A stretch of DNA of 64,000 nt from the NCBI GenBank assembly GCA_002189035.1, contig NEEC01000008.1, forward strand, positions 1,178,001 to 1,242,000, given 5' to 3'. The number at the start of each line of letters is the position of its first letter. Position 1 is the first letter of the stretch. The stretch comes from Utricularia gibba (lineage: Eukaryota; Streptophyta; Magnoliopsida; Lamiales; Lentibulariaceae). The translations under genes were made by a program, and so were the position numbers. Below the pieces are notes generated by a model. It had not been told where the DNA came from. It saw nothing but the letters and a program-made list of their open reading frames with translations, and ran no database searches. Positions 22,658 through 43,478 of the stretch are shown piece after piece.

Positions 22658-25600
22658 ATGAGCGTCGCTGACGATCGGGATTTTGTGCGGCTTTCCGACC
22701 GGAAGGATGAGGAAGGGGTTGATGGAGAGCCATCTATGCCTACAACCAGTGCTTCAGACTCCGCGTGCGTGGAGCTCGGGGCGCTCTGTTCTACTGAGGA
22801 TATTTCTAGGGTTTTGCACTCGGGCAGCGATGGATCTGCTGAGGCGACGATTGTTGGTGATGTGAAAGATGTGGTGTGTCTGGAAATAAAAAAGGAGGAT
22901 GGTGTAGTCGGAGATGCGAGTGCGGGGGGTGTGGAGAATCAGGCTACTGCTTCTGTTTCTGCTGGGAACGAAGGTGGTGAAGCCATGGTTGAAGTTGTTA
23001 AATTTGAGAGTGGTGTGGAGGACTACGATTCAATGCTGTTTGAGTTTGATCGTTTCGTGTATAAAGCGGGGGATGAAGCTGTTGGGTTTGGGTATGAAAT
23101 TGGGGATATTGTATGGGGTAAGGTGAAATCCCACCCATGGTGGCCAGGACAAATCTTTAACGAGGTACTTGCTTCTCCTTCGGTTAGGAAGCTTAAGCGT
23201 GAAGGCCATGTATTGGTTGCATTCTTTGGAGACAATAGCTATGGGTGGTTTGACCCAAAAGAATTAGCTCCATTTGCAGGGTGTTTTCATGAGAAGTTGC
23301 GGCAGTCGTCTTCTCGAGCTTTTTTGAAGGCTGTGGAGGAAGCAATGGATGAGATATCCAGAAGAGCGAGTTTAGGATTGGCTTGCCGGTGTAGAAATGA
23401 GTTTAATTTTTGGCCCTTCAGTATAGAGGGTTACTTTACAGTTTATGCTGGTGATTATGAACCTGGTGTTTACTCAGCGAGTCAAATAAAAAGGTCGAGA
23501 AATGATTTTCGACCCAGTGAAATGCTTTACTTCATTCGAAATTTGGCGTTGAGACCTTTCAATAATGATCTCCGGACAATCGAGTCTGTTAAAAGCAAGG
23601 CCATAGCTTTGGCTTACAGGAAAGCGTTGTTTGAGGAATTTGATGACACATACGCACAAGCCTTTGGTACTATACCCCAGCGACCTCCTCGGCCTACTGC
23701 TCCGGTTGCTGTGGATCCATCCTGGGGTAAACTAATATTTCTGGTGTATTGGCAACGGCATATTGTTTTTTTCTGATGTCGGCTGCAAATGAGCTCAACA
23801 ATATGAACTTTCCTTCTCGAGAAGTGTGGCACATTAAAAATGTTCTTGTCATTGTGTTATTTTTTCCACATAAAATCCCTGTTTTTTTCTCCAATGGGAT
23901 TTCTGTCTCTCCTGGTTCAAGTATCGCGTTGTTGTGTTTCAAATTTGTCTCAATTGCAGTCATTCCCTTGAATATTGTTTCCTTATCTGCATGCTTCGTC
24001 TTTCGAAATTTCAGCTTCTTTGAGCGGCCGGCTGGTATTCGCTGAAGCACTTGACAATGTGAAACTCTCCACCACACCTAATCAAGCAAGTGATCCAGCG
24101 AAGGAAGAAAAGATTGTGTCTAAGAGCCTAGATGTGCCTGCTAACATGAAGCAAAAGAACGTTAAAGCTGAAGTTTCAGTGCCTCTACCCGATGATGTCT
24201 TGGGCTCATCTGGGACAAGAGTTGATTCCAACATGAAAGTTCACGTGCAGCAATCTGGTCTTCAGGCTCAAGCTTCCGTTAGCGGGCAGATTAAAACTTC
24301 TGAAGGTTTCCGGTTGCTATCTGAAGGCAGAAAGAAGAAAGCTAAAGTAGTTGGAGAGCATGCTGCAGTAGCAAGCCCTGAACAAGCATCTTTAGCCAAG
24401 AAGAGAAAGAAAGAAGCAAACACCCAGGGGCCATCATTAGGCAAGGGAAGCAAGAAGAGAAAGAAAAAAGAAAACTTTGAGGTGCCATTCATTCCTGAGG
24501 AGAGCAACAAGAGAAAGAAAGATGCAAGTTGTCAGGGGCCAGTTAGTGAACATGGGCCTCCACCAATTACGTGGGTTAAGAAGAAGAGATCCATGGTGAT
24601 CAGAAAGGGAGTGACTACTAAAAGAGTTTCACATATGAATTTTGCCGAAGGTCATGTTCCAAAAGCTGCCCAAATGTCCTGTGATGGTCTTGATCATGGT
24701 TCATTTCCAGTGGCGGGGCCACAGCAAGACGCTAAGAGTCTGGCCGTGGCTCTTAGGGATCTCCGTGTGGTTGCACTTGATCCCTTCCACGGGGTAGACA
24801 GTGGTGTGTCTGCAAATATGCGTCTGGTTTTAATGAAATACAGATCTCTTGTGTTTCAGAAGAGCTTGGCTTTGCCTCCTCCACATGAGAACAAAGCAAA
24901 TGAAGTTCATCTGCCTGATTCTACCACTTTACATAAGCCTGCTTACAAAAGCACCGAGAAATCAACTATCAAGCATGCCCAACCGGCAGACAGGCGTGAT
25001 GATCTGACCAGTGGTGGCAAGAAGCCCACCCGAACTGATCAACCGGAAGTCTGTAAGAAAAAGAAGCTTGATGACTCCAAGGATGTATACTTCAAAAAGC
25101 CTGCGTATTCAGGTGACAAGGACAGAAAGAAGTTGATGAATGACTCAAAATCTCTTTCCATTGAGAAGAAGATTCCTCATCAAACTGCTGCGCCACAGCG
25201 TAGAGATGCAAGAGAGGCCCCTCCCAGAAATGTTCTTCCAAACCCACCGAAATCTCTGAAGCGGGATTCTGGTCATGCTGACAAGCCTGTAAAAGTACGA
25301 CAACGAACTGCACTGATAATGAAGTTTCCGAAGGATGCGGCCCTTCCATCAGTTGCAGAGCTGGCCGCAAGATTTGCCCGTTTTGGACAACTAGAGTACA
25401 CTTCGACTCGTTTGTATTGGCAAACATATACCTGTCGCGTGGTTTTCCAGTATAAGGTTGATGCTGAAGCTGCTCTGAAATTTGCGTCTTCAAGTGAAAA
25501 CTTATTTGGATACGAGAATGTGTTCTGTCACCTCAAGGATGCAGCTTCTGACGGGGCAGAACCAGAAACAACCAAGCTCCGGAAAGCCGATCCCGTAACC

Positions 25601-26014
25601 AGATCAGCCGTGCCGCTCAAGTCATGCCTCAAGAAACCTTCAAACGAAGAAAAGGGAAGCGGGAACGGCAACGGCAACGGCAGAGGAGGTACGAGAGTGA
25701 AGTTCCTTTTGGATGATGATGGAGGCGCGAGTGTTGAACAAAACAGTGTTACTCCCACGACACATTCTTCGTATTCAATGGATTTAAGTTCGGAAAACGT
25801 AGTGGCTAGTTTAAACCCACAGCCCATCCTCGCTGGCCAAGCCTCTCAACATCAGATTCCCAAATTCCCAGCCTTCGTCCCACCGGAGTTCCGGCCATTT
25901 GCCCAAATGCCGGTGGACATTTCCGGGGAGCTCCTGAGTTTACTGAACCGGTGCCGGGATGTGGTGAACAGTGTGACCGGTGTTCTGGGGTATGTACCAT
26001 ACCATCCCCTGTGA
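22658..26014 (+). CDS. PWWP-domain protein (PDP-like, Polycomb-interacting type)
   Basis: This is a chromatin protein resembling the Arabidopsis PWWP-DOMAIN INTERACTOR OF POLYCOMBS group (PDP1, At5g27650). That group is reported to associate with PRC2 and influence H3K27me3 at flowering genes. Two exons, 22658-23726 and 24015-26014, total 3069 nt (1022 aa). The N-terminal 130 residues are acidic. The PWWP domain follows (GDIVWGKVKSHPWWPGQIF, then VAFFGDNSYGWF). A long Lys-rich middle has repeated KKRKK blocks fitting nuclear localisation. An RRM-like C-terminal block includes LIMKFPKDAALPSVAELAAR and TSTRLYWQTYTCRVVF. The splice joins DPSW to SLSGRLVFAEAL in frame. It is convergent with the formin gene, with 626 bp between the stops. 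Confidence 0.9.
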
Positions 26015-26640
26015 CGCTGAAGCCTCTCCTTTTCATCCATCATCTTTTGTAACTGTAATGTTCTTGGTTGTTTGTGCTACTGTTCTTTGTAACCGGTTCC
26101 TGACCGGGTCACAGATCGGAACAGCCTCTGAACACAATGTTGGTGCCTACTCTGTATTGGGGGAGACCAAAGGGAGATTTTGATGATTAGTCAATGGAGA
26201 ACAGTATTGTAGTGATGGCAGTTGGGCCCCTATTTCCTTCATTATTCCTACATCACTACATTAGTTTGCATGGATGTGGTCCAAGATTCGAGCCCCTGAG
26301 TGAAACCAGCAAGGAATCATTCTTATTACACCCTTCCTATTTGACCCCTTCACCTGTATAGTTTCAGTCAGCCATGCGTTACTTAATTACCAGGAGGGGG
26401 CTGTAATGGAACCTTAACACAGGTGTATGTGTACCTTCCATTCTTCTGGAATTTCAATTTGCATGTATTCATCGGATGGGATCGCTTGATTGATGGAGAT
26501 GGTCAACATTTGGGACCTTGGGTACCAATACTTTTCTAGTTTGTTGAACAAGAACTGACTGGAAGGACTGACTCTACATGGATTCAGCTGTGGGGAAAGA
26601 ACTTGTTACACAGCAGATTCATTCATCTGATGCAAGCTTA
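26015..26640. other. Convergent 3' region between PWWP and formin genes
   Basis: This interval is probably shared by the two 3' UTRs. No coding sequence or RNA gene is supported. Confidence 0.45.
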
Positions 26641-29036
26641 TCAGAAAGGAGACAATGGGTTAAGAATTCTGGAGCTTTTAATGTTTCTAAGCTCTTTGCA
26701 GACCTGATCCAACATGTTGAGAAAATCTCTTACAATCACAAAGATTCGGAGGGGATTTGTTTCGTCTTTCCCAACATCTCCATGGAAATATTCTGTCATT
26801 TCCCTTACATGTGAAAGCACTCTCTTCTCATCTTCATTCACTTCATTCAACTTGCTTTCTGCACGTTTCAGGAATGAAGACATTGACCTCTGAAACCCCT
26901 GCTCCGCCATGGCCACATCTTGCATGATCAGAGCCCGAATCTTGTCTACTCCGTTCGACAAATTTGCGACGGAGCCAGCAAGAACATCCAGGTCTAAACT
27001 TGCTGTTTTCTTTGCATTGCAAAGCTCTGTGCTCAAGCTGGACACTATCTCTAGTCCCATTTTTCTATACTTCTCTTCCTTGTCTTCCTCCATGCTTGCT
27101 CTCTGATGTATTCTTCCCATGATGCTTTCTGACATTCGGAGTCCCTCCGATCGAATGATTTCCTGCACCACAAAATGTAGCAGTGTCGTCTTCCCATCTG
27201 CACCTTTAACATCAGCCAGCTTGAGAAGAGCATCTAACTTGAATGCTTTTGCTCCACCCCTAATGGTTCCAACGTTCATCCTGTTCCCTGTTTTTAACAC
27301 CGCCTCCAGTAGCTTCAAGAACAGCCGGCTTGATCTCAGCTCAGTACATGCTTCTTCAAGCATTGAGAATGACCTCCTGAGATGAACAACTTCTTCTTCG
27401 AATGTTTCCCTGAAGAACATGGCTTCTATCTTTGAGAAGGCATATGGGATATGAAGCATTGCTTTCACTAATCTCTCTGCTGATCCCAACTCATTCAAGT
27501 CTCCTTTGAAATCCTCAAGCTTTTCTGCTTCTTCCTTTGTGGGTGCCATCTTCCAAAGGGCCTCCAAATCTTGCAATGACAACCCTTCCCCTGTTGTCCA
27601 AAGCAGCAATCAACTGAGAAACAACATAGGATCTTGATATTACAGAATCGAGATCATCACCAGGCTTACCTTGGATAATGGCAGCGCAGACTTGGTCGGA
27701 ACTGGCGTTGAGGGCCTTGGAGAGGATGGTGATGTTGTGCAATCTCTTTGGATCCAGAATGTGTGTGCTGGGTGAAGGTGTTTTTGTGTTGTTTGCTGCT
27801 GCTGCTGCTGACGATTCATCATTCTTGATGGGATTTTGCAGATTGTAACTGAAAAGGGATTCGATCATTTCTTCATCAAATCTGCAATCATGATCCATAG
27901 ACGTATCAGTCAAAAGGATATGAACGACTTGATCAGAAAGTGACATTCTCTCACTCGAATGAGCTTGATCGGAGTTTGTCCCACACAGTTGAACGATTTG
28001 AAGCAGCTCGAACTTTGTCCCAGTGGAGTGGCTTTAGCTTCGGCAGGGAACAAGTGCCACTCCCTCTGAACGGAGGAGGCGGTGGTGGAGTCTCCGGAGA
28101 GAAATTTTGGGGTGGAGGGGAAGGCGGCGCTGGAGTATCCGGTGAGTAATTTCGGGGTAGAGGGGGAGGCGGTGGTGGGGTCCCTGGCGAGTAATTTCGC
28201 GGCGCAGGTGGAGGCGGCGGCGGAGGCGGGAAGCGGGGGTAAGAGGAAATGGTCTTAGATTCAGGAGTCTCCACCGGCAGCGGTGGCCGAAGTGGCGGAG
28301 GAGGTGGAGGAGGAGGGGGACAATGCGAGCCTTTTAGCTGATTTTCCTGAACGGCGATTTGCGAGGATTCACTTACAGGAGGTGAACGGTTAAGTGAATA
28401 GAAAGATTCATCGCTAGAAGAAATGGAGTCATCTTGCTCTTCATCTGCAACATCGATCCTCGATTCACAGACCCCAGAAACCGAAACCTCATCAATTTCT
28501 CCAGAAGAACAATCGGAGGAATCAAGCCCATTTTCTTGTCCGTACTTGTAAACTGGATCGGAGTTCATCTTGCTCTGTAAAATGGAAGAGACAGTGGCGC
28601 TCGCCGTACGCCGCCGTTTCCTCCTCTTCTGTTTCCTCATTTTACGGCAACCCAAGAAGCACAAAACTCCGATTCCGCAGAAAACACACCCAGATCCAAC
28701 AGAAAGCGCAATCATGATCAATGCTCGTTTCGTTTGACTCTCATCTTCCCTCTTGAACTTATGGGTCAGTAACAGAGGGAACCGCGGAGGCTGAGAGGGC
28801 GGCGACGCCTGCTGCTTCGAGTGCATCGCCGGCGAGGGAGAAGGCGCCGCCACCGGCCCCATGGAAGACGAAAGATAGTGACCCTTCTCGAACCCCACAA
28901 CGAATCGAACCTTCCCCATTGCCACAACACCCCTTTGATCAGAATCCCGGGAAACAAAGACTTGAGAAGAGAAAAAAGAAACAAGGAGTAAAAGGAAAAG
29001 GACCAAGAAACGAGCAGCCTGAAAAGCAAAATCCAT
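26641..29036 (-). CDS. Class I formin (FH1-FH2 actin nucleator)
   Basis: This is a membrane-anchored plant class I formin, which nucleates and elongates actin filaments at the plasma membrane. Three exons, 29036-27955, 27881-27670 and 27590-26641, sum to 2244 nt (747 aa). An N-terminal hydrophobic signal or anchor is at about residues 6-24 ([18 protein letters not shown]). A short Pro-rich extracellular part is followed by a transmembrane helix near residues 105-128 ([12 protein letters not shown]...). Next come a basic and Ser/acidic stretch, a proline-rich FH1 region, and FH2 from [13 protein letters not shown]2 motifs include [46 protein letters not shown] and [11 protein letters not shown]. 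Both splice junctions keep frame. I cannot tell which FH number it matches. Confidence 0.94.
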
Positions 29037-31428: not shown

Positions 31429-33679
31429 GACTAAACTACCGGTTACAGAATCGGCGCAGCGTAGCAAAAGAAGCGCACTGTGAGCTCACTCCTCCGTCAG
31501 AGTGGGCGGTAGTGAGGGGAATGTGTGCGTATTTATTGACGGAAGGGGGCGTTAAAGGTGAAGAGCCTTTTCTCTGGATGAAGACGAGATTGCAGCCGTT
31601 GGATCAGAACCTTGATGACGTGGGCGGGCCGTAGGATAAGAGAATGTGCAATCAGATAAGAACGCAAGCTTTGACGATGGAGATGTCTCCACGTGTCCAT
31701 CAATGCCACGTGGTGTGTATCAAGAGGGGCAGTCACGTGAGACTGCCAGAAACCGGACAGAGATGTTTGAGGGATAATTCAGGAATCTCACAAAAAGTTG
31801 GATTCCAATTTTTTAAAAAAAATATATTCAAATTGTTTATCCATAAATAGAAACGAAAGCTTTTCAGAGAGGTACGCATTGCATAGCGTATCCAGGAGAC
31901 ATAAATGTTAACTTACCTTTTATAGTATAAATCATTCAAAATAAAAATTAGATTAAATTTGATATAATTATAATTACCATTAAATTGCTTTACTATAAAT
32001 TGCTCATAATTCATCATTTTTTAATCATTTAAAATACTAATAAAACCAAACCTAATCCCCACAATAAATCACTTTCTAACTATAGTTACACAAATACCCT
32101 TCTATTCCAGCCATCACTAAAAGACGAAAATGGAGAGAACGGTCAATGGCGTATCACTTCAATGTTGGGCCTTTTCACCGAAGGCCCAAAAAGCTGGAGA
32201 CAGCCTTTTTTTGTGGGTATGATGATAGAGGAGGCAGTTCCAATTTTCATAATTAAAAATGTATAATCAATTTTATATAAGTTTATTAATGTAAGTATAA
32301 ATAATAATTATTTTTATTTACATATAAATATTATACTTTCATTTTAAATTAGGATATTCTCAAATTAGTAATCAAATTACTTTCAAATTCTTTTAGATCG
32401 TTCCAATTTTATCATTAAATATTTTTATTTTTATAATAAAAATAATTAAAAATATTTTACTTTTATTATAGAATGGACAAACTGACCATTCATACCAGTT
32501 GAAGTATTAAATACAATGATATTTCTCATCCGTAATTATTAGTAGCTCATAAGGTATATATTCTCTAATAAATTCGATGATAATCATTCCATTTATTTGA
32601 AACATTTGATATTTTTTCAATTCTTAATAATTCAATTGCAACAACACAAATTTCATAGTTCTTTTAATTTTTGGTAATGTTATTTGTGTGGGAAAGTGTG
32701 TCCATATTCATCTCTTATTTTGATTTCAATGTATGCGTTACGACACCATCCTTACATTCAATCAAAGTATAACCAATTGATTAGATTTCAAAAGAGATTT
32801 TTTTAAAAAAAAAATTTAAGGTTTAATATGGAATGAACTTTTAATATGATTAAAATATTATTTTTTAATTAATATAATTTGGAAAATAGGACATTAAATT
32901 ACTAAACAATCTTTTGAAAACAACATTAGATTTTAATTAAATTCTATTTTAATAATCATACTTTAATTGTTCTAACTACAAAACACTTTCAAAAAATAAT
33001 GATCATGAAACTATCTTGTGTTTTAAACTTTGTATTTTTTAAATTTTTTTTAAAAAATATATTAAAAAAATAGAATTCATTTCATTAAGTAAACTCACGG
33101 TGAGAAAATAGTTGATTAAATACGATTGAAGTAGTTATATATATTGATAATAATTTTTTTAAAGTAATAAAAATATTTTTGTGTGGCGAGGGCTTGATTT
33201 TTACATTAATTACAAAAAAGGTCACCAATCTGCCGGTTCAATTTTTTTTGTCTTGCAGTTGAGCTGGCAGACAGCATCTACCACGCGCCGGAAGCTCGGG
33301 GGTTGATGCGACAGCAATATGTGGGCCCCACGGGGAGTCGTAACTCAACCTCAGCATTCAACTCCAATTAGTGATCCTTTTTGGATTCCGCCAAGCGCCA
33401 CTGTCCTCTCCCTCCTCCTCGGGCAGGCATGGCACCTTTGGTATAAGCAGGGCATCTTATCACACAATCTATTGAAAGGCGCCTGGGCTTATCTCTTTGT
33501 TTATAAGATCAGTAGAAAAAAGATGGGCTCCTGCCAAACGCATCCAGACCACCACCTCGCCTACTCTTCCTCTTTGTTCTCGCTGTTGAGCTAGTCGTGG
33601 AAAGCAGTATACGACAAATGCTCTCTCTATTAGTATTAGGCTAAAACATTTATACGTGCAAACACTCATCAGTGTTCTG
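31429..33679. other. DRM1 promoter and AT-rich intergenic region
   Basis: 31429-31760 is the GC-richer DRM1 promoter and leader. 31800-33200 is strongly AT-rich with no coding sequence. 33180-33679 is of mixed composition and leads into the TOPLESS-like pseudogene without a recognisable N-terminal exon. Confidence 0.45.
31690..31739 (-). promoter_or_regulatory. Cluster of three G-box (CACGTG) cores upstream of DRM1
   Basis: CACGTG occurs at 31690-31695, 31707-31712 and 31734-31739, about 260-310 bp upstream of the DRM1 start codon. A further GACGTGG lies near 31616. G-boxes/ABREs bind bZIP and PIF-type bHLH factors, which fits the dark, sugar and ABA responsiveness known for the family. Function is inferred. 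Confidence 0.6.
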
Positions 33680-36045
33680 AACAACAGGGAAAATGAGCAG
33701 CTTTCTAGATATGGTGACACCATGACAGCTCGCAGCATTATGTTGGTAGAACTCAGGAAGCTTGTTTTTCCTGCATTGAAGTCATCTAGATTGAGAACCC
33801 TTATCAATCAGAGGTACACACATACTGGCACATTTGAAATGGATATTTTTATTTTTTGAAAGAAGATTTTGTTGTCCTTTGGCCTTCCGTTCTTTCACTC
33901 CAACCACTTCATTAAGTTTTGATTTGTGGAAGAAGTTCATTGTCACATTCGAAGTGTTAAATTTATGCTACCTAGTAGTTGAACCGGACGTTTTCATGAC
34001 CCCCAGCCTCAATTGGCAACAACAGTTGTGTAAGAATCCTAGGACGAATCCAGACATTAAGACCTGCATATACTTCTCTTGGAGCTCAAGGGTTCATATT
34101 CTTACCATCATGTATAAAATTCATTGTTCAAGGATCTGTTATATCCAAATGCTGCTGCTGCATCATCAGCTGTGCAAGGATCTGTCGTCACTGCATATTC
34201 ATTGCCCTTACCACCTAATCATGGTGAGTGATTGTGCCAACACCATCCCATTGATTTTAAAAAGGTTGTAGAGGAATTCAGGCTAGTGATTTTTTTTTTC
34301 CCAAGGAAAGGAATTGAATTGGTTTTCTATTATTGATGGCTGCTTATCATTGTGAACAGTTTCAATCATGAAGAGACCAATCACTCCTCCGGCAACATTG
34401 GGTGTGGTTGAGCATCAGAATGCTGATCATGACAGCTTGATGAAGCGTTTGAGACCATCCCAAGAGGAGGCTATCTTTAATATACCTGAGATAGATTCCT
34501 GATTCAGATGTGAGTCACTTAAGAACTAAATTATGTTTCGCTTTTATATTCAGGGTGCATATCTAACCTTTCAACAACAGGCATCCTGGAGCCTAGATGA
34601 CTTGCCTAGAAATGTGGTTTTCCCTGTTTCTTCATGTCAGAGTCCCTTTTTATATTTTAAGATGCTTCTGTAAATGATTTGGATGGTGTAACAGCGCGTT
34701 GCAATAATGGGATATAACACTTTGGGAGGCTGGACTGAGGGAGAAGTTGAGCTCCAAGACATTCAAGATCTGGGAAATGCAAGCTTGCACTTTGGCATTC
34801 CAGGTGTACACTTTGCCTTTCATAGTCTCTCATGTAGCATGCTGAATTGGCAGTCAGATTTTACCGGTTGTTAAACTGAGTATTGATGGATTTCTTGTCA
34901 TGAATTTGAGGGATAGTTTCCATGGCCAGGAGTCTACCAGTATCAGCTTTCCCTTTTCAGCAGACTGCTGCTGCCAAAGATGCCCCTTTTTCAGTTGCTC
35001 ATGTTACATAGAGTCCAGATGGATCATTTTGTGGTAACCTTGTCTTTGGCATTTGGTGTGTGATCACAAGTATGCCTAAGAACACTTACCATGTTGCAGG
35101 TGCTGCATTTTCAAAGCATTTAATTCATTTGTATCAATACATGGGGCCAATTGATCTGCGCCCACATTCAGAGGTATATGTATATCTCTACTCGCAGTCA
35201 CCTTGTCAGCATCAGTATTTAAGTTTGAATTCAACACTCTGGGTGCATGTTTGGTAGATGAATTTAGGTATTGTTACATGCAGGGACGACAAGTTGATCA
35301 AAGAGAGAAGAATCTTAATAGTCATCTTCAAATCTGATACAGCTCTTCCATGAGCTCAGTTGTGTGCTTACCTGATCACTTTTGTAGCTTTGCATCTGAA
35401 GTATCGAAACATGGGATAAGAGAAAGACAATTCCCATTCAGTGGCGACACACATCCGCAGTTTCACTCTGATCAAGTTCGTTTCCTTGTTTCTCATGAAA
35501 TCCAAATAGCGGTATATGATGCATCAAAGTGGCGACACACATGAGCTTTCTTCAAAATATTCTCTGAGTGTGTCTGAAGAACGCATCGCTTCTGCTGTAG
35601 AGGGTACCTCAAGAACCTCTTTCTGCCCCCATATCAGGTGCAGCTTACTCGTGCAACAGTCAGCTTATTTTTGCTTCCTTTTGTGACGGTAATATCGGAA
35701 TCTTCCTCCGACTGAGATGCACCATCTGCGTACTTAGCACAAAATGTGCTCAATAGGGGAGAATAGTACTGCTCGCCTGAAATGCATTTGGCTCCCTTCG
35801 ACGGCCATGATAGCATCATCTATGCCATATTTCAGGCCGGGGCAAGGCGTATTCCCAGTGGTGGTGGCAGCGCATCCTCAGGAGCCTAACCAGTTTGCCG
35901 TCCGGTTGTCCGATGGGTCAAGGTTTCGAACCCCTGGAATCCGTTAGCAAGTGGGGTGCATCTCCGCCGTCCGATGACGGGATGGTTAACGGAAGGCACT
36001 GTTCATCATCCACCGCCAGTAACCATGCCACTGATCTCTGATCAG
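33680..36045 (+). pseudogene. TOPLESS/TPR corepressor pseudogene
   Basis: Scattered fragments in the correct order match plant TOPLESS-related corepressors (LisH-CTLH-WD40 proteins). They are RENEQLSRYGDT...RSIMLVELRKLV and SSRLRTLINQ (33680-33811), SLNWQQQLCKNPRTNPDIKT (34005-34064), KRPITPPATLG...LMKRLRP (34368-34502, ending in a stop), ASWSLDDLPR (34581 onward), DITLWEAGLREKL (34711 onward), SKHLIHLYQYMGP (about 35110-35170), QFHSDQVRFLVSHEIQIAVY (about 35455-35520), AAYSCNSQLIFASF (about 35635-35680), VAAHPQEPNQF (about 35860-35895), and a C-terminal SKWGASPPSDDG (near 35945-35980). Between them are stops, frameshifts and large deletions, including most WD40 repeats and about 12 residues in the first fragment. 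Introns are retained, so it arose by DNA duplication rather than retroposition. Confidence 0.88.
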
Positions 36046-36438
36046 ATCCAAGGATGAGAGAAAACCTCATCTGTACAGATGGATTCCGGGATTCTGTTAA
36101 AATATTTTTAAAATATATTGAATTTGATTGGGAAAACTTTTTTGCTTTATATTTTTTTTTTTAAAAAAGCACTTATTTTATGTAAAAAGGCCCTTTATGG
36201 TTGTATGGGCCAGGCGGTTGGCCCAAGCCCAATATGGAAGCTCCTCTAGGGGCATGATTGTTATTTAATCCCACCTCCTCCCTCCCCATCCGTCATTCCC
36301 ATTTCAAAATTCAAACGGGCTGCAGTTCAAGCCTAACGTTGCATTCAATTCATCTTCTTCTCTCCGCCGCTCCAACCGCAAGGAGTTTTTTGTCTCCTTG
36401 AAATCCAGTTTTTTCATTCCCACAACTGAACTTTAACG
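36046..36438. other. Promoter and leader of the importin-alpha gene
   Basis: AT-rich sequence to about 36180 is followed by a stretch with GGCCC and TGGGCC-type motifs (36190-36240) and a pyrimidine-rich leader. The importin ATG at 36439 follows. Confidence 0.45.
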
Positions 36439-39307
36439 ATGCCTCTGAGGCCTAACGACCGCCCCGATGTTCGCCGCAAGACGTACAAGGTGGCTGTTGA
36501 TGCTGAAGAAGGGCGGCGGAGGAGAGAAGATAACCTGGTTGAGATCCGGAAGAATCGGAGGGAGGAGAGCCTCCAGAAGAAGCGCCGTGAAGGGATGAGG
36601 GAGTTCGGTGTCCCGGTTGAAGTTGTTAATGGGGTTGATCAGAAGGTTGCCACTTTAGGTTCTTTTGTCTTAAATCCGTGTTTTGGGTTGGTCTTTGCTT
36701 GATTTATGTGGTAATTATGTGTTAATCTTCAAAAATGTGATGGGAATTTTCGGAATTGTTTAATATATTCAAGGTGCTAGCCTTTCATATAAATGTATGC
36801 TTAGCGGTTTTAGATCCATAGATTATCTCGGGTTTGGAAGCCAAACCATGAATATCTGATACTCTGAATTCGATTATATGCTATGTTTTTTTGCGTTTTC
36901 AGGTGCAGTTAGAGAGCATACCTTCGCTGGCTGAAAGTGTGTGGAGTGAGGATCCGAACAGGCACCTTGAAGCCGTCACACAGTTTCGTAAACTTCTTTC
37001 AATAGGTGAATCTTCTTTTCCGGTCTTCTCCAGGAAACTTATTTTTATATTAACTTACATTCTAAGGTCCCAGCTTTTGATAATGATCATCTGCAGAGCG
37101 CAGTCCTCCAATTTTGGAGGTGATTCAAGCGGGCGTCGTTCCGCGGTTTGTACACTTCTTGACTAGGGAAGACTTCCCCAACTTCAGGTCATAAAACACT
37201 ATCATCTTAAGTCATATATGCAGGAATTTTTTTATCCAAAAAGCACGTCTCCCTGCGAATCTTATACTTTTTAGTAATGCAGTTTGAGGCGGCTTGGGCT
37301 TTAACTAATATTGCTTCTGGAACCTCGGAGCATACAAAAGTTGTAGTAGACCATGGGGCTGTTCCGTTATTTGTGAAGCTTCTTGGTAATTCAAGTGCGG
37401 ATGTTAGAGAACAGGTTTTTGACTCATCCTTTTCATTTGACCGTCTAACTGGCCAGTTTTCAGACATTTCACATCCTTTCTAATTGGTCTGACCGTATCC
37501 TTTTAACGCTACTTAGGCTGTATGGGCACTGGGGAATGTTGCTGGTGACTCGCCAAAATGTCGAGACCTTGTTCTTGGCCATGGCGCTTTGCACCCTTTG
37601 CTAGCACAGTTGAATGAACATGCCAAGTTATCTATGCTTAGAAATGCCACATGGACGCTGTCAAATTTCTGCAGAGGGAAGCCGCAACCCATGTTTGAAC
37701 AGGTTTTTTTTCTTTTTGTACCCTTTCTTGAACATTTGTTAATATTCACATATCTGTTGTGTATATATATACAATGCGAGTATGTTTTTTATTGACATTT
37801 TATTACTCATTATTGACCCTTGAGTGGATTTTTTTTTTATTTGATGTGTATTCGCTGTTTGTATGTTTGTTAAGTTTTATTGTGATTTTTTTCCTTACCC
37901 TGTGTTGTAGAATATTCATTTAACCCGTCTTCTTGAATACTATGTTGCAGTAACGTCCGTAAAAGCGTTCGCTATGCTAGCATTACTTTAATTTTCGTGG
38001 TTCTGTTTGCATAAAGCAAGCAGTGTTTGTTGGGATACTGATAACTTCAACTGCAGACAAGGGCTGCTATCCCAGTTCTTCGTCAGCTTCTTCTTTCAAA
38101 TGATGAAGAGGTTTTAACTGATGCATGTTGGGCGCTTTCTTATCTCTCTGATGGAACAAATGATAAAATTCAGGCTGTTATTGATTCTGGTGCATGCCCG
38201 CGCTTAGTTGAGTTATTGCTGTACGTACCCATTTACTACATTTTCTAATTACCCCGTATCATTGATTGAATCATTGATTTTGGTAAATGAAATGATATTG
38301 GGTTTCAGCCACCCGTCGCCTTCAGTTGTCACCCCTGCAGTTCGCACTGTCGGAAATATTGTCACTGGTGATGATGTGCAAACTCAGGTATGATTAGAAC
38401 CATTGTTCAGGAGCCCAGTTCCCGTATTGTTTATGTTTTCATGAACCTGAATTTTCAATGGGCGTATCTTCAGCACATCATCGGCTGTAATGCATTGCCT
38501 TGCCTTCTGAATTTACTCACCGGCAGCAATATTAAGAAAAGCATCAAGAAAGAAGCTTGTTGGACGATTTCTAACATCACAGCTGGAAACAAAGACCAAA
38601 TTCAGGTGAAGCTCGATATCCATGTTCATGGTAAGCCATCAGAGTTGTTTTTCTTCTGCGGCAATTTGATTTTTTGCTTTTCGAATTCTGCAGGCTGTCA
38701 TAGATGTGAACATAATCGGTGCTCTAGTCAATCTACTTCAAAATGCTGAATTTGAAGTTAAAAAAGAGGCTGCCTGGGCCATATCAAATGCAACATCAGG
38801 TGGCACACATGAACAGATCAAGTGAGATTCTTTCAAGTTCGGCTAAAACTGATAATTTTAATACAGATGTTAATGATGTCAGTCAAATCTAGAACCTCTT
38901 GTTCACAAATGCTTCTGGTTGCATACAGGTATCTCGTCAGTCAGCAGTGCATTAAGCCCCTGTGTGATCTGCTCGTATGCCCTGATCCAAGGATAGTCAC
39001 TGTTTGTTTGGAAGGGTTGGAAAATATTCTGAAAGTAGGAGAAGCAGAGAAGAATCTTGGTCACACCGGCGATGCCAACATTTGTGCTCAAATGATCGAT
39101 GATGTTGATGGCCTTGCCAAGATTGAAGACCTGCAGAGCCATGACAACAATGAGATATATGAGAAAGCAGTGCATCTCCTGGAGACTTACTGGATGGATG
39201 ATGAAGATGAAGAGGGAGTGGAGGTGCTCCCACCAGGAGTTCAGCCATCTCGATTCGGAACCATGGAAGAAGCCACTGCACCTCCTGGTGGATTCAGCTT
39301 CAACTGA
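36439..39307 (+). CDS. Importin subunit alpha, with one apparent frameshift at the end of exon 3
   Basis: This is the nuclear import adaptor that binds classical NLS cargo through armadillo repeats and importin-beta through its IBB domain. Ten exons: 36439-36645, 36903-37005, 37097-37187, 37283-37414, 37517-37702, 38057-38220, 38309-38387, 38474-38605, 38694-38821 and 38929-39307. The IBB is basic ([27 protein letters not shown]). Arm repeats carry the Trp/Asn signatures [64 protein letters not shown] and [12 protein letters not shown]. Exon 3 ends DFPNF plus AG, where the family has a full Gln codon before FEAAW. One base is missing near 37185; adding it gives 1602 nt (533 aa), the normal size. 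Confidence 0.94.
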
Positions 39308-40834
39308 GGAAGCTGTTGTGGAACAAATAATGGGCTGAACCTTCTAAGTGTTTATGGCCACGGTTTGTGTGGCTGAATTTCTGTGTCATGTTCTTTTCTT
39401 TTTTTTTTTCAGTTGAAGGTTTTTCACTCTTGGCAATTCATGATCAGAAATGAAGCATGGAGTTTTTTTATACACGTTTCAGCAATAGACTGCGGATTGC
39501 AAATAGAGGAAGAGGAAACAACAGGCAATCATCTCCAGTGAAGACTAGCACAGTCCCATTCTCTGAGTTCCTCCGGCGATGGCGGCCGCCGGACTTCAGG
39601 GAGCTGACCACATACTGGCGCTTCATGACAGAGGGTCACAACAGAGGCCCTTTCCAAACTCGAATCAGGACACCTGACACAACGTATTAGAATGGCAGCA
39701 TCCAAAAGAACCCTTTACCTTGAAAGTTCATTGAAATAAGGCGAGGGTGTGTGGGTAGGGCACCTTGAGCATGAAAAGAAGACAAACACGAAGGACATTA
39801 TCACCATGAAGATGTGAACTAAACGATAAAAGAAAAAGATGACTGATGCAAGCAGAGAATGAAAAGCTTGATTTTCAACTGTAAACAGAAGCAACCTGCA
39901 GAAGTTCCCAGTTCTGCCATGTCAAAACAATGATTTCTGAAACCATTATCTCCCTCGGAACTATCAGATAGGTCAAGCAATTCATGCTTCCATACATGAT
40001 AAACTACAGCATCATCCTAAATAAGCTTGTGCACCATCTTCACATTAAAAAGAATCATCAGATTCATTCAAAACATGTTACACGCTATGACTCTGAACGA
40101 TTGGTGGTAAGCATACTCAATTATGCAACCATCAAGAACGACTAAAACAGAGTATACTGCGTCTGTCAGCTCCTTAACTTCGAAGTTTCTTTTTTGAAAT
40201 TTGGGTGATGTTCTAGCCAGTTAAATCAACATAGCGGTGGATAAAAACAAAGTTGAAACTGTGCCTGGAAATTCCAGAAGTGACTACCCAAAAAATTTGC
40301 ATAGCTTCCCATCTGAATAGCCACGATTGAACTCAAACATGGCGGACAAAGTGTACAGCAGTTTAAACTCAAAAGCAAAAAAGCAGTGAGCACATTACCC
40401 TGCGTGAAAGCTATTTCGCCTGGTATATTCCTACTCGGACCTCGCTGAAGCCCTATATGCAACGGAATTTTCAGTGGCATTTTTTTAAAATAAAAAAAAA
40501 AAAGAAAATTGCTTCACCCATGAAATAACAGCAGCTGTTGAAGTAAATGATGTATTGCATTTTTGTCTGTTATATATAACTGGAGGTAGGCGAGATTTTC
40601 TTCTACCTCCGGTGGATTGATTTCCACCCTCCTCTCCATTCCTCTGTTTTCCTCTCGTTTCCCTGTTGCTGTCATTCACCCTTCGCAAAGTTTCACAAAT
40701 CAGGGAAAAGTTTCCGATTTTGGCAAGGATCAGTCATTGCCCTCGATTGTTGAGGCCATCTCCGAAAACCCAAATACCTTTAGCTTTGCATTTTTCCGTT
40801 TTCGGTTTGGATTTGTAATTGAGGTATCAAAGCC
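39308..40834. other. Intergenic region between importin-alpha and Di19 genes
   Basis: The importin 3' UTR lies at the left. The rest is of mixed composition with only short unconvincing open frames. From about 40560 it is probably the Di19 promoter and pyrimidine-rich leader. Confidence 0.4.
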
Positions 40835-42403: not shown

Positions 42404-43478
42404 TGCAACTAACGGCCGATGCTCCGCCTCCGGCCCCCCCCTGGCTGACGGCCGCCGTGCCGGAGATGCGGCCGGTGGCTCCCCTGAGCGTAAATAAGCT
42501 GCCTTAGATGTACCTTCGTTCCAACATGTGTGTTCCAGTGTTGGCAGCCTAAAAGCATGATGACCGTACTTGAACTCATGGGTGTCTTTTTCCTGATAAG
42601 AAAAGGCATATGTACTTGTTTTATTTTTACTAGGTTTGTCCGTACATGAAAAATAAATATTAATATATCAGTTAAAATCATTATAACTTTTAATATTAAA
42701 ATTGTTTTCAAACTGATTTTCAATTTTATTATAATTTTAATTGATCCTTTTTAATAATGATTTGAATTGAATTTAACTCATTGTAAAAATATTATAAAAT
42801 TAACTATTTAAATTTTAATATTTATAAATTTTAGAATTCTTTTAATTTATTATATAAATTCTTAAATCAAATTCAAAAAAAATCATGTATTGAATTGAAT
42901 CAGATCTAATCCTAAATTCAATCCATTTTAAAACATTAGGCCAAATGTATTTGTGCTGAAATTTTGGAAAAAATTAGATTTGATCAAATTTTGGATAAAT
43001 TTCAAAGAAAATTTGAGAATATTTAATTTTGTTAAAATTTAAAATATTGGTTATGAGATAAAACAAAGGAATGTGGGCTGATGAAAATAGATTACAAAAT
43101 GAGCTTTAGATGGGCTTTCTATATTTGGGTCTAGAAGGATTGGGCTTTCGGTTACTTAAGCCCAAAAAGTAGTCAAATTGCCGCTTCGCGGCGCCGTTTA
43201 TGATTGAATTAAGTCCAATGGTGGCTTCTTGCTCCTCCTCATTCCGGCGTTTGCGCCGCCGCTTCAACGGTCGGCGGATCTCTTACCCGGCCAATCTTTG
43301 ATCATTGATGATTTTTGTTGTGCTGGATGCCTGTTTAAATGTGAATAGTTCAATGACGGTTTATCTTTGCTTTCTGGGGCTAGATTTAGTCTTCTAGAGG
43401 GGGAGCCGACCGGAATTATGGGTAAGGTGAGCAGAGTTGTGCATTAGGAAGGTGAAAAAGGTTAAAGTTGATAGGAGA
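42404..43478. other. AT-rich intergenic region
   Basis: The Di19 3' UTR is followed by AT-rich sequence (42630-43100). A GC-richer promoter segment (43120-43400) contains GGGCTT and AGCCC motifs ahead of the RRP15-like gene. No gene is supported. Confidence 0.4.

Follow-up and report, generated by a model that had tools for sequence, protein, structure and literature searches.

How a broken TOPLESS/TOPLESS-related (TPL/TPR) gene came to lie next to an intact-looking importin-alpha gene, and how it was lost, is the question raised by the window analysed here, a stretch of 64,000 nucleotides from the genome of Utricularia gibba. An earlier note, made from the sequence alone, had placed at least ten ordered TPL/TPR fragments at positions 33680-36045. 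The locus is almost certainly a non-processed (duplicated) pseudogene and, more exactly, a fractionated ohnolog, the native TPR copy of the window.

The window's own assembly (100.09 Mb, 516 contigs) was searched for related sequences. It contains seven TPL/TPR loci with near-complete exon sets plus the one fossil. When the fossil interval was used as a query, ordered matches were obtained on one TPR gene, C3:1925.8-1931.1 kb, minus strand (best E 4e-97, 68-89% identity, introns included), and weaker series of matches at C98:97-102 kb, C304:3443-3449 kb and C412:650 kb, while the shuffled fossil sequence used as a control gave zero matches. Exon models of the C3, C98 and C304 loci, each of which carries one TPR gene of 25 exons, were built with a spliced-alignment script. 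An Arabidopsis TPL sequence guided the exon finding, and its influence is confined to the exon models and to a single tip of the tree; the fossil itself was compared DNA to DNA inside its own genome, independently of this guide. In the partner gene on C3 (C3:1,925.8-1,932.3 kb), all 25 exons were modelled and no stop codon was present. Its predicted product contains the LisH_TPL, CTLH-containing and zf_topless domains, and among solved structures its N-terminus matches rice ASPR2/TPR1 (4zhe) best and Arabidopsis TPL (5nqs) less well. A single break was seen in this gene: exon 11 lacks one base (at about C3:1929.21 kb) that is kept in the fossil, C98 and C304. On a branch that is strongly constrained, this gap is either a very recent frameshift or an error of the assembly. 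The C304 model has imperfect exon ends at two places (ends of exons 7 and 24), which barely touch the comparison.

Direct alignment to the C3 gene identified 12 of the 25 exons (4-12 and 23-25) at window positions 33,658-36,066, in order and with intron sequence between them. The core of the interval given by the earlier note was borne out, and its fragments were recovered as 12, but its limits were slightly too narrow, because the alignment also takes in a 5' region and the 3' end as far as 36,066. Identity to C3 is 79-90% in the exons and 65-85% in the alignable introns (4-11, 23, 24 and the 3' end of intron 22), in agreement with the proposal that intron remnants reflect duplication at the DNA level. 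The features of the locus, all on the + strand, are as follows.

33227-33625, + strand: former upstream/5' untranslated region of the TPR gene (71-85% identity, ordered blocks, C3:1932.9-1932.4 kb)
33626-33657, + strand: junction of a deletion of about 1.3 kb, exons 1-3 gone (LisH and most of CTLH); C3 1932399 and 1931100 adjoin in the fossil
33688-33813, + strand: exon 4 (end of CTLH/CRA), 126/159 bases aligned, 90%; 33-base in-frame deletion, donor GT kept
34007-34092, + strand: exon 5 (SLNWQHQLCKNPR zinc-finger region), 86/175 aligned, 85%; 89-base deletion
34146-34223, + strand: exon 6 remnant, 78/133 aligned, 87%; 5' end lacks 55 bases
34360-34490, + strand: exon 7 (KRPITPPATLGVVEHQNADHDSLMKRLRP), 131/131 aligned, 86%; donor GT changed to AT
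34554-34644, + strand: exon 8 remnant, 91/136 aligned, 79%; 3' part missing
34695-34803, + strand: exon 9, 109/110 aligned, 84%; 1-base frameshift
34964-35033, + strand: exon 10, 70/70 aligned, 89%; in-frame stop TAG at 35,009-35,011
35101-35173, + strand: exon 11, 72/72 aligned, 88%; retains one base absent from C3
35258-35302, + strand: exon 12 remnant, 45/96 aligned, 84%; donor GT changed to GA
35328-35354, + strand: junction of a deletion of about 2.4 kb, exons 13-22 gone (most WD40 repeats); C3 1928999 and 1926577 adjoin in the fossil
35388-35534, + strand: exon 23, 147/183 aligned, 84%; stop TGA at 35,397-35,399, frameshifts
35601-35756, + strand: exon 24, 156/176 aligned, 80%; 12- and 8-base deletions, donor lost
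35839-36057, + strand: exon 25 (C-terminal tail), 212/217 aligned, 81%; 5-base deletion, 7-base insertion

In C3, the counterpart of the 5' region precedes the start codon by 150-650 bases; the part at 33,246-33,420 has an E value of 2e-34. The partial preservation of the 5' region would suit a remnant with continued transcription and a role as RNA, for instance as a source of small RNAs that lower the expression of the C3 TPR gene, as would the exact 21-base words that the fossil has in common with the coding sequences (45 with C3, 1 with C98, 0 with C304). However, the 43 shared 21-base windows in aligned exons fall within the range given by random placement of mismatches (median 24, 95% 4-56), so that perfect 21-base identity with the C3 gene is not in excess; moreover, the fossil stands in sense orientation, carries indels throughout and has no sequence feature that calls for such a function. 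We regard a role as RNA as very unlikely. That a transcribed remnant might regulate the surviving C3 gene specifically through shared short sequences is, judged from sequence, highly improbable; if true, a dead ohnolog would serve as dosage regulator of its twin.

The lesions are those of a pseudogene. The fossil exons contain two in-frame stops and ten gaps that break the frame, of which nine are deletions (89, 55, 1, 31, 20, 17, 1, 8 and 5 bases) and one is a 7-base insertion. A single event may have caused both gaps of exon 12 (31 and 20 bases). The base by which exon 11 exceeds its C3 counterpart is no lesion of the fossil, being the one that C3 lacks. With exons 1-3 deleted, the LisH and CTLH N-terminus is absent and exon 4 is the sole remainder of that part, and with exons 13-22 deleted, most of the WD40 propeller region is likewise missing. 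Frameshifts, stops and lost splice sites leave no continuous reading frame after splicing. A fossil with a broken frame and without LisH, the greater part of CTLH and the bulk of the WD40 repeats should be unable to make a TPR protein; the stops, frameshifts and large WD40 deletions that had been noticed at the outset are all real. Apart from the two large deletions, the fossil differs from C3 by 32 pure deletions, 625 bases in all, and by 20 pure insertions that add up to 115 bases, although intron events are unpolarised and part of them could be changes in C3. Flanking direct repeats were not in excess at deletions of 5-150 bases (mean 0.64 bases versus 0.75 at random, p=0.71), with the exception of the 33-base deletion in exon 4, which is flanked in C3 by the 7-base direct repeat AGAAGCT.

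Constraint was assessed by assigning changes to the fossil and C3 branches, with sites at which C98=C304 giving the outgroup state. At codon positions 1, 2 and 3 (401, 405 and 332 sites), the fossil branch has 27, 26 and 37 changes and the C3 branch 13, 7 and 30. Positions 1+2 thus changed 2.6-fold more often in the fossil (53 versus 20, p=1.4e-4), whereas position 3 changed alike on both branches (37 versus 30, p=0.46); together with the disabling lesions, this relaxed constraint upholds the earlier verdict of clear decay. Within the fossil branch, positions 1+2 (0.066 changes per site) were slower than position 3 (0.111, p=0.011), so that the copy was not neutral throughout. The slower positions 1+2 fit a late death but may also reflect some lasting constraint. 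A simple two-phase estimate with block bootstrap gave a neutral share of the branch of 0.47 (95% 0.21-0.87), and these values suggest that the copy was first constrained and then neutral for about half its life.

The same slowness of positions 1+2 over the whole branch, and the survival of several acceptor and donor sites, could also be expected of a shortened working gene, such as one for a small CTLH/zinc-finger or C-terminal protein. Against it, gaps or stops that break the frame are present in 8 of the 12 remaining exons (5, 6, 9, 10, 12, 23, 24 and 25), the start exon is deleted and positions 1+2 changed 2.6-fold as often as in C3. We therefore reject this reading, which retains only a minimal probability.

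The position of the locus identifies it as a native copy. When the whole window was compared in translation with a 70-kb segment around the C3 gene, ordered matches related window 3.3-48.8 kb to C3:1964-1898 kb in inverted orientation. MYB, kinase and Di19 genes belong to this collinear block, in which the TPR fossil sits exactly between its expected neighbours. Because it is collinear with C3 and in the expected place, the fossil is the native gene of its homeologous segment. The earlier note had expected a source copy elsewhere in the genome; surviving copies do exist on C3, C98 and C304, but the locus is in its original collinear position and there is no transposed source. The C3 gene is the sister (ohnolog) of the fossil, not its parent. 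Two further observations were made. About 130 bases at window 42,772-42,902 match C3:1923.56-1923.69 kb (74%) in the opposite orientation to the block and out of order, as a small repeat or a local rearrangement. A kinase exon matches C328:2409988-2410176 and C338:23824-24012 with equal score and identity, so that one of these contigs is possibly redundant.

If the C3 gene had been copied into the window by dispersal or retroposition, a close relative with all exons would be expected elsewhere, as is the case, but the introns are present and the position and neighbours are those of the C3 gene; synteny has already refuted this reading, whose probability is close to nil. A processed pseudogene (intronless and inserted elsewhere) is ruled out by the retained introns and by synteny.

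The divergence of the fossil is that of a duplicate from a shared event. Third-codon-position divergence is 0.251 for C3/fossil and 0.222 for C98/C304, 0.41-0.44 between the two pairs, and 0.19-0.29 between window and C3 for the four flanking genes of the block; the fossil hence matches the other pairs expected from one event. In the protein tree, (C3, fossil) (95/91) is sister to (C98, C304) (99/97), and the group of C3, C98 and C304 that includes the fossil has 100/100 support, placing it inside the TPL/TPR family. Third-position divergence and protein tree together indicate two rounds of duplication that produced four TPR copies, one of the youngest pair being dead. Single-base gaps may occur in this assembly, as the missing base in C3 exon 11 may illustrate, but an artefact in which a working gene was joined wrongly or polished insufficiently was rejected as vanishingly improbable, given that 25% third-position divergence from the nearest copy, two deletions of kb size and multi-base indels by the dozen are not base-calling errors and that the flanks are collinear.

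C98 and C3 are collinear outside the TPR gene (C98 111.6-124.2 kb corresponds to C3 1933.7-1948.1 kb, in matching order). This favours a segmental or a whole-genome event as the older round. Other TPL-type genes of the genome are likewise paired (C1/C412 and C142/C375), as would be expected if the young event was genome-wide. The two successive duplications of large chromosome segments were most likely whole-genome doublings, a reading based on one pair of segments compared at depth, in which segmental duplication is not formally separated from duplication of the whole genome.

Gene loss in this block was not confined to the TPR gene. The neighbouring gene starts 0.4 kb downstream of the fossil.

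36439-39307, + strand: neighbouring importin-alpha gene, intact-looking (Arm_3/Arm Pfam matches; exon matches elsewhere in the genome, none on C3)

On C3, three short 3' pieces of it are found at C3:1919.1-1919.6 kb (E 3e-11 to 2e-6), collinear and inverted, which correspond to window 39,092-39,628. The loss of importin-alpha is therefore opposite to that of TPR: the gene is reduced to scraps on C3 and intact-looking in the window. A PWWP gene (from 22.7 kb) and a formin (FH2) gene (26.6-29.0 kb), together spanning window 22,658-29,036, had no match in the examined C3 segment, and the genes common to C3 and C98 (C3 1933.7-1948 kb) are absent from the window. Losses have thus occurred on both homeologs. 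The proline-rich part of the formin gene contains a 45-base tandem repeat (3.4 copies, window 28,075-28,225).

These data fit a simple course of events. A recent large-scale duplication, most likely of the whole genome, would have given rise to the fossil locus and the C3 gene together. The TPR copy would have kept protein-level constraint for a time and then lost its function; substitutions, numerous short deletions and two of kb size would have followed, and redundancy with the C3, C98 and C304 copies presumably permitted the loss. The order of the lesions in this scheme is conjectural, and the locus probably yields no functional transcript. Its introns, disabling lesions and relaxed constraint are those of a non-processed pseudogene, and its collinear position in a duplicated block and its divergence, equal to that of same-event pairs, are those of an ohnolog.

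Compared with the plant TPL/TPR co-repressors (Groucho/Tup1 type), the fossil is alike in exon order, peptide motifs and tree position with C3, C98 and C304, but differs by its broken frame and by the deletion of LisH, much of CTLH and the majority of the WD40 repeats. In maize homeologs, direct repeats of 3-24 bases were described at fractionation deletions (Woodhouse et al. 2010, PMC2893956). As in maize, one homeolog loses the gene through many short deletions while the other keeps it; by contrast, loss here runs through a recognisable pseudogene with introns, the deletions generally show no excess of flanking repeats (apart from the 7-base case), and both homeologs of the window/C3 block have suffered losses. 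For U. gibba, two recent duplications in a genome assembled from long reads to about 100 Mb (PMC8333044) and strong fractionation (PMC10663240) have been reported; the two-round history and fractionation at the TPR locus, in an assembly of 100.09 Mb, are in line with this genome contraction. Among titles and abstracts, no study of TPL/TPR genes in U. gibba was found.

The fossil adds one more case to a kind already known, the textbook form of fractionation, in which a duplicate decays as a pseudogene and is lost by deletion. It catches the loss of a duplicate part-way. Since one genome contains the dead copy together with its living twin and the two older copies, that genome allows estimates of the constraint, the time of death and the way in which DNA was lost. 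With importin-alpha, the fossil provides a case of adjacent genes lost on opposite homeologs. General views are unchanged by this ordinary but unusually readable duplicate loss.
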